From NCBI RefSeq assembly GCF_002208115.1, contig NZ_CP020946.1, positions 2,728,001 to 2,792,000 on the forward strand: 64,000 bases of DNA. Reading direction: 5' to 3'. This DNA comes from Bdellovibrio bacteriovorus. Lineage in GTDB: Bacteria; Bdellovibrionota; Bdellovibrionia; Bdellovibrionales; Bdellovibrionaceae. Shown one piece after another: positions 53,618 to 56,258 of the stretch; positions within the stretch are counted from its first letter, which is position 1, and each line of letters begins with the position of its first letter. The notes beneath the pieces are model-generated. The model was not told the origin of the DNA. It saw nothing but the letters and a program-made list of their open reading frames with translations, and did no database searches. The translations under genes were made by a program, and so were the position numbers.

Positions 53618-54736
53618 CTACAGCGGAGTGATTTCTTTTAAAACATCCGCCAAAGCTGACATAGCAGCTTCATTTTCATGATCGCGCCCTACACTCAAAC
53701 GCAGATGCGTCTTGAACCCATAGTTCAATAGCGGTCTCATGATAATCCCACGACGTAACAAGGCTTCGTTCACCTTGGCGGCGTCGCGGAGAGTGTCAAA
53801 CATGACAAAATTTCCCTGAGATGGAATGTACGGCAGGCCTAATTCTTCTAACTTCTTGTAGAAGTAATCAAGCCCTTTCCAGCAAATCTGCTGCGATCGC
53901 TCAATAAATTCTTTATCTTGCAGAGCCGCATTTGCAGCCACTTGCGCTAAATCGTTGACATTAAATGGTTTGCGCACACGGTTAAAGACCTCCACAACCT
54001 CGGGCGGCGCGATCATCGCCCCCAGGCGGAAACCCGCCAGGCCATAGATTTTGGAGAAAGTGCGAAGAACAATCAGGTTTTTATACTGTCCCATATAACC
54101 TTGTGCGGATGCATAGTCTTTGGCACGCACAAATTCGTTATAGGCCTCGTCGAAAATAATCATCACATCGTCGCGGTTACCGACTTTCTGAAGGAAAGCC
54201 TCCACTTCAGCTTTGGTCGCGTAGGTGCCGGTAGGATTGTTGGGATTAGAGACAAAAATCAAACGGATGTTTTTTTCCGGGTGTTTCAGGAAATAATCCG
54301 CAATCGCCGGCAGATCAAAGCGGTATCCTTCCGCCATTGGAACTTTGTGGATCACGGCACGGTTCGCCGGAGCGCTGACTTCATAGGCATTAAACGCTGC
54401 CGCAGATGTCAAAACGCCGTCATGGTGCTCACAGTAAATACGGCACAACAAATCAATCAGTTCGTCGCTGCCGTTGCCAATAGCAAGTTGTTTTGTCGGG
54501 AAGCCCCATTCTTTCGACAAAGTCTGCAAAAGCTCATAGTGGGATGGATCCGGATACAGGTGCTGATGATCCAAAGCCTGCTTCACAGCCGCCATGGCTT
54601 TCGGGCTGGGACCCAAAGGATTCTCGTTACTTGCGAGCTTGTAGACCGTTGTGAGCCCGTACTCACGTTGGGTCTCGGAAATCGGCTTTCCAGGTTTGTA
54701 GGGCACCAGATTCAAAATTTCGGGAGAAATCTTCAC
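53618..54736 (-). CDS. hisC: histidinol-phosphate aminotransferase
   Basis: About 372 aa, fold-type I PLP enzyme. 'KLASNENPLGPSPKA' at the N-terminus, 'FVSNPNNPTGTY', 'IIFDEAYNEF' (Asp to pyridine N) and the PLP-binding Lys in 'LRTFSKIYGLAGFRLG' (about 225) fit HisC; the C-terminal 'LRLSVGRDHENE' holds the carboxylate Arg. Start is GTG 54736 with AAAGGA eight bases upstream. Isolated from other his genes, so an aromatic amino acid role is also possible. Its promoter region is disturbed by the duplication just upstream. Confidence 0.92.
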   Translation of the reverse strand: MKISPEILNLVPYKPGKPISETQREYGLTTVYKLASNENPLGPSPKAMAAVKQALDHQHLYPDPSHYELLQTLSKEWGFPTKQLAIGNGSDELIDLLCRIYCEHHDGVLTSAAAFNAYEVSAPANRAVIHKVPMAEGYRFDLPAIADYFLKHPEKNIRLIFVSNPNNPTGTYATKAEVEAFLQKVGNRDDVMIIFDEAYNEFVRAKDYASAQGYMGQYKNLIVLRTFSKIYGLAGFRLGAMIAPPEVVEVFNRVRKPFNVNDLAQVAANAALQDKEFIERSQQICWKGLDYFYKKLEELGLPYIPSQGNFVMFDTLRDAAKVNEALLRRGIIMRPLLNYGFKTHLRLSVGRDHENEAAMSALADVLKEITPL

Positions 54737-54744
54737 TTTAGAAT

Positions 54745-54869
54745 CCTTTTCTTAGAGAGAATACTTTGCTATACCTGTCCGACTAAGACTTAACATTTTT
54801 AGAGTGTATAAGAGACAGCCTTTTCTTAGAGAGAATACTTTGCTATACCTGTCCGACTAAGACTTAACA
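54745..54869. repeat. 51-bp direct repeat around a Tn5 mosaic-end-like insert
   Basis: Two exact 51-bp copies (54745-54795 and 54819-54869) enclose 23 bases (54796-54818) that end in GTGTATAAGAGACAG. These 15 bases match the synthetic Tn5 mosaic end used in tagmentation libraries, and the full end matches with a single-base gap. This is most likely a library or assembly artefact; the natural sequence probably has one copy. The copies contain the probable promoters of hisC and of the hydantoinase-like pair. Confidence 0.9.
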
Positions 54870-54905: not shown

Positions 54906-56258
54906 ATGCAAAACAGCCTCGTGCTCGGGGTGAGCGTCGGTGAATCTTTCGCCGAATTCTCACTCCTGTCAGACTCCAGTCCCCTTGCGCAAAAGAGAGT
55001 GTTTCACTCTCGTGAAAGCCTTAAATCCTCACTGTCCCAGTTCATCGCGCCCCATGGAAAAATCCAGAAGGCTTTCATCAGCCTGCGCGTTCCCAAAAAA
55101 CTTTTGGACTACAAACTGAGTGGTGCTGTGGCTCACGTCAGCACCGAAGGACTGGAACACTGGCTGGATCTTTGCGGAACTCCGGCAGCGCTGACCAGCA
55201 AGGATCTGCAATTTGCCCTGCGTGAACGCGTGCGCGCGGACGGCAGTGTGGAAACCGCATTGCAAACCGAGGAACTGGAAGCCATTGCCGCAAAGCTTGA
55301 ACTGATGAGCTGCAAAAAAGTCTGCCTGAACCTGTTGCACTCTGCGACCAATCCCGTGCACCTGAACGCGGCGACAAAATTCTTCGCCGAAAAAGGCATT
55401 GAAGTGTTTGCTCCGGCCAGCAGCGACAACCCTCACGAAGTCACTCGCTGGACTCAGAATGCCCTGAACGCCACTCTTTCCGGCGTTTTTGCGGACCTGA
55501 AAAAAGACGTGTATGCGGGCCTTGAGTCCGCGCTGGATAAAAAAGACATTCACTTCCTGGATGCCGGCGGTGAACTTTTCCAGGAGGAATCCGGAAAAGA
55601 AATCAGCAGCCAGTTTGCCGCTTCCACCGCCCTGGGGCTTTGGAACAAGTCCTTGGGGTCTGATGTTCTGTATCTGGGCCTTGAATACTTCACTTTGATT
55701 TCTCCGACCCGCTGGGCAGCCCAATGGAACAGTTGCTGGGGACCGGTGGAGCTACGCCACGTAAAAGTAAAAAATCTGGGCATTCAACCCACTTTGGGAA
55801 TTGGTTTGAATGGCTTTGAGCGTTTTGACTTCCTGACTCAGGAAGAAGGCTGGGAACCGGGGCCGATGTTCCTGGGTCGCGGGCAAAAAATGAGTCTTTT
55901 GGATCTGTGGTCCGAAAATCCAAAGCTTTCCAAACTGGAAGGCCTGGAAGACCGTGTTTCCGCCCAGGGAATTCAGCGCTTTAAAACCTCCCTGCTGACT
56001 CTTTCCAAAATCAGCACGTTCAAAGACAATGACTTCAATCATCTGACCAAAGAACTGCAAAGCCTGTCCGTGCAAAGACTGGCGGTGGAATCCTTCCTGC
56101 AGCGTGATCAGCAAAAGTTATTGGTGACGGGTCCTTTGGCGGCGCTGTTTGCCAATATCTTCAAAAAAGATCCGCACACAACAGTGGCAGCTGATGAATT
56201 CTGTGAATCCGCAGCCACGGCCCTGTGGGGCATGAAAGCCCTGAAGGAGTCCAAATGA
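54906..56258 (+). CDS. degenerate hydantoinase/oxoprolinase A-like protein
   Basis: About 450 aa (HyuA proteins are usually near 690). The N-terminal nucleotide-loop 'DIGGTFTD' of the family is replaced by 'LGVSVGESFAEFSLL'. The second phosphate motif ('DMGGTSTDV') appears as 'FLDAGGELFQEES'. 'AFISLRVPKKLLDY' and 'LNATLSGVFADLKKDV' retain the domain order. 'LRERVRADGSVETALQTEE' resembles the family's 'RERVDADG' stretch. So ATP-dependent activity is doubtful. The stop overlaps the B-like gene by ATGA, as for true HyuA/HyuB pairs, so the proteins probably still form a complex. Confidence 0.7.
   Translation: MQNSLVLGVSVGESFAEFSLLSDSSPLAQKRVFHSRESLKSSLSQFIAPHGKIQKAFISLRVPKKLLDYKLSGAVAHVSTEGLEHWLDLCGTPAALTSKDLQFALRERVRADGSVETALQTEELEAIAAKLELMSCKKVCLNLLHSATNPVHLNAATKFFAEKGIEVFAPASSDNPHEVTRWTQNALNATLSGVFADLKKDVYAGLESALDKKDIHFLDAGGELFQEESGKEISSQFAASTALGLWNKSLGSDVLYLGLEYFTLISPTRWAAQWNSCWGPVELRHVKVKNLGIQPTLGIGLNGFERFDFLTQEEGWEPGPMFLGRGQKMSLLDLWSENPKLSKLEGLEDRVSAQGIQRFKTSLLTLSKISTFKDNDFNHLTKELQSLSVQRLAVESFLQRDQQKLLVTGPLAALFANIFKKDPHTTVAADEFCESAATALWGMKALKESK

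Follow-up and report, generated by a model that had tools for sequence, protein, structure and literature searches.

Tn5 mosaic-end remnants in the closed chromosome record of Bdellovibrio bacteriovorus SSB218315, a very probable assembly artefact

A Split Duplication Upstream of hisC

The window analysed here is a 64,000-nt stretch of the genome of B. bacteriovorus SSB218315 (CP020946; 3,769,537 bp in one contig). It includes hisC (53618–54736, minus strand), a histidinol-phosphate transaminase gene (TIGR01141, 331.8 bits, above the cut-off), and a divergent gene (54906–56258, plus strand) with weak similarity to the hydantoinase A N-terminal domain (Hydant_A_N, 22.2 bits, below the cut-off). 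Both reading frames are intact, and only the upstream region of hisC is changed. There, a 51-bp sequence at 54745–54795 occurs again at 54819–54869, and the two copies are identical, as a preliminary description of this DNA had stated. Between them lies TTTTTAGAGTGTATAAGAGACAG (54796–54818), which consists of a TTTTT spacer (54796–54800, plus strand) followed by AGAGTGTATAAGAGACAG (54801–54818, plus strand). The spacer is neither native sequence nor a standard Nextera tail, and it is missing from related genomes.

We identified AGAGTGTATAAGAGACAG as the mosaic end (ME) of Tn5/Nextera with one T deleted. The full ME is AGATGTGTATAAGAGACAG, 18 of the 19 bases of which are kept. The preliminary description had recognized 15 of these bases, correctly, as GTGTATAAGAGACAG matches the ME exactly at 54804–54818; the preceding AGA also belongs to the ME, and the match extends further once an indel is allowed. 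For the same reason, a mismatch-only search of the window returned no match. A natural IS50 end was rejected as a candidate for it: the edit distance is 1 to the ME and 4 to each of the IS50 outside end (OE) and inside end (IE) sequences, which bears out the earlier assignment to the man-made ME. The only arrays that Tandem Repeats Finder reported in the window were three with short periods, none of them at this locus; duplications split by an insert are outside the reach of this tool. A plasmid search with the window region returned no match.

Two relatives were aligned to the locus, G006 (3,782,950 bp; presumed HD100) and G002 (3,988,594 bp; presumed Tiberius). Each has one 51-mer and no ME, and the alignment shows the window to be longer by exactly 74 bp. 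This is the length by which the native region had been proposed to be shorter, and the suggested comparison with other assemblies thus returned a single 51-mer without an insert. In 18 Bdellovibrio genomes (these two and at least 16 more), both query halves align to overlapping parts of the target, indicating that a single copy of the 51-mer is the rule. The ME remnant is likewise missing at the corresponding sites of related genomes.

Seven ME Remnants Across the Genome

We examined the whole SSB218315 genome by pattern searches on both strands. Searches with the ME halves AAGAGACAG and GATGTGTATA together cover nearly any copy with a single indel, and a search allowing three mismatches was added to cover substitutions. 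Seven ME-like sequences were found. Each differs from the ME by one indel event, and none is an exact ME. About 0.002 single-indel variants would be expected by chance per genome, compared with the seven observed, a figure that includes the variant with a 2-nt deletion. All have an edit distance of 1–2 to the ME and of 3–5 to the natural IS50 ends.

Four of the remnants lie between direct repeats. Besides the one in the window (genome position 2782801, plus strand, T deleted, 51-bp duplication), these are at 104014 (plus strand, G deleted, 34-bp duplication), 2812843 (minus strand, A inserted, 36-bp duplication) and 3667691 (plus strand, T deleted, 30-bp duplication). The remnant at 1569516–1569535 (plus strand, A inserted; L058 1501–1520) has no duplication; about 91 bases that the relatives have in a lipoprotein-like gene are missing, and the ME remnant occupies the gap. 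The remaining two, at 380360–380376 (plus strand, TA deleted; L036) and 2405267–2405284 (plus strand, G deleted; L047), are in strain-specific sequence and are preceded by 8–10 T. Neither flank of the former matches the relatives, and the latter is matched well on its right flank only. Unrelated contigs may have been joined at these two sites.

Genes Broken in the Record

At least four genes are broken on paper in this “complete” genome. The obgE gene (~103913–105029; L034 1397–2513) carries a 52-bp insert at 104014, comprising the 34-bp duplication and the ME remnant, which shifts the frame. The frame now reads MKFIDEVSISLASGRGGPGCV-MCIRDS-..., with MCIRDS encoded by the ME, and stays open for 87 aa. 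An internal ATG begins a 316-aa frame that lacks the start of the gene, and the gene in a relative is a single 354-aa frame. The annotated ObgE protein is probably without its N-terminus. As obgE is usually essential, a 52-bp insert in it would be unexpected in a living strain. In addition, a 739-aa Tad-domain protein (3667691) and a 270-aa methyltransferase (2812843) are each cut into two frames, and a lipoprotein-like frame (1569516) stops at the ME. The obgE, Tad-domain and methyltransferase genes are whole in the relatives.

Library and Assembly of SSB218315

According to the published account, SPAdes, MeDuSa and IMAGE were used to assemble the genome from 75-nt paired reads, and the trimming described there is quality trimming by Sickle only (PMC5941755). 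The methods describe library construction by Bioruptor shearing and SPRI-TE preparation and do not mention tagmentation (PMC5941755). Given this mechanical shearing, the ME remnants can be artefacts only if the work also involved a tagmented library that went undescribed, and the published methods may be incomplete.

At none of the seven sites is the ME preceded by a Nextera tail (GCAGCGTC or GGGCTCGG). Instead, runs of 2–10 T stand before the ME at five of the seven sites, one of these runs being native sequence as well. The shearing and the T runs leave room for more than one library type, but neither supports a biological origin. We also considered the TruSeq adapter, but its 13-mer AGATCGGAAGAGC had no exact match, and two matches with one mismatch are at chance level.

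Origin of the Remnants

Several observations together indicate that ME-bearing reads or contig ends almost certainly entered the assembly, and that the remnants are an artefact rather than biology: the repeat-ME-repeat structure, the occurrence of seven remnants, the lack of any insert at the relatives' sites, the disruption of genes and the varied lengths of duplication and deletion. The preliminary description had proposed adapter sequence built into the assembly. The artefact stands, now with six further remnants, and the exact laboratory or assembly step is our inference. We suggest that a right-hand contig opened with an ME remnant followed by the repeat, and that a left-hand contig finished with the same repeat, an overlap of 30–51 bp. 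The adapter would have masked this overlap, so that closure to one chromosome would have butted the contigs, leaving the repeat twice with the ME remnant in the middle. The 51-bp copy 1 that goes with AGAGTGTATAAGAGACAG would accordingly be a contig overlap entered twice. Between contigs without an overlap, such joining would have left an ME remnant where native bases are missing. All overlaps are shorter than 55 bp. This would be compatible with a SPAdes run on the 75-nt reads in which k went up to 55, a setting that we infer. Exact and substitution-bearing adapters were presumably trimmed by a filter without indel tolerance, so that only indel copies were left.

Tn5 transposition leaves a constant 9-bp duplication. 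The unequal duplications and the one deletion therefore argue for the joining of adapter-bearing contig ends, and they agree with the earlier view that the locus is not a transposition product, which had set the 51-bp duplication against the expected 9 bp; the other sites have other lengths or a deletion. Engineered mini-Tn5 insertions, or their footprints, could be real in the sequenced strain, as engineered Tn5 transposons carry ME ends. We consider this highly improbable, given that each site has a single ME and no transposon body, with only 74 bp (window) or 52 bp (obgE) of extra DNA, that duplications of 51, 34, 36 and 30 bp and one loss of ~91 bp do not fit the 9-bp rule, and that seven sites would have been hit, obgE among them. 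With seven scattered copies, four of which are flanked by direct repeats, the remnants might also recall a short, naturally mobile or repetitive ME-like element native to Bdellovibrio. However, a search with the 14-base ME core found no copy in the interior of any of the other 23 Bdellovibrio genomes, the remnants resemble the synthetic ME more closely than the natural OE or IE, and repeat lengths and indels differ from copy to copy, making such an element hardly credible. It is just as implausible that the ME remnants are physically in the chromosome through an unrecorded transposition, in vivo or in vitro, with long and variable duplications.

A different kind of artefact deserves more weight, although we regard it as unlikely. 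The remnants could have been made in the library molecules, by chimeras, concatenated tagmented fragments or template switching, in which case the reads would truly contain the repeat on both sides of the ME. This challenges the contig-joining step alone and shares the verdict of an artefact. The T runs before the ME are unlike Nextera tails and might stem from some non-standard step in library preparation. On the other hand, each of seven different junctions would have had to win out over normal molecules where coverage was normal, and the varied overlaps and the ~91-bp loss resemble contig ends.

With an assembly artefact as the source, the CP020946 record is wrong upstream of hisC, in the first codons of obgE, and in the Tad-domain, methyltransferase and lipoprotein-like genes. 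“Gene loss” or promoter differences at these places should thus not be interpreted, and the finding amounts to a correction of a reference record on which comparative genomics of predatory bacteria draws. More generally, indel-bearing adapter copies can survive inside a genome labelled “complete.”

Mosaic Ends in Other Genomes

A scan of a broad bacterial collection for the exact ME returned at least 87 copies in 80 loci. Among the matches listed, 80 of the 87 copies lie no more than 170 bp from a contig end; of the other seven, four adjoin N runs inside scaffolds. Most of the listed copies are preceded by GCAGCGTC or GGGCTCGG, the Nextera tails, and TTT directly before the ME was found in none of the 87. 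TTTTT followed by the ME had no match in a viral collection.

These contig-end residues are like those of SSB218315 in that a 19-nt ME faces into genomic DNA. They differ in matching the ME exactly, in lying mostly at contig ends and in having a tail before the ME, whereas the SSB218315 remnants are inside a closed chromosome, carry one indel event each, lack tails and in several cases lie between duplicated overlaps. The Streptomyces/Actinoplanes NRRL “Doro1” scaffolds (L095, L127, L148 and L164) have the adapter at an internal contig junction, as in SSB218315, but in those scaffolds N still marks the gap, whereas in SSB218315 it is closed without a mark. We conclude that SSB218315 is an instance of the same contamination as that seen at contig ends and N runs, after gap closing. 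The natural outside and inside ends of Tn5/IS50 are similar 19-bp sequences, but the SSB218315 remnants lack the 9-bp duplication and a transposon body between two ends.

A search of the other 23 Bdellovibrio genomes for the 14-base ME core TGTATAAGAGACAG gave a single match, at base 5 of a draft contig. Contig 4 of the Bdellovibrio draft G001 (L056 1–18) opens with GATGTGTATAAGAGACAG, an adapter at a contig end. Outside Bdellovibrio, contig NZ_JAELTJ010000202.1 of Achromobacter sp. ASV32 (L125) carries a long Nextera adapter at both ends.
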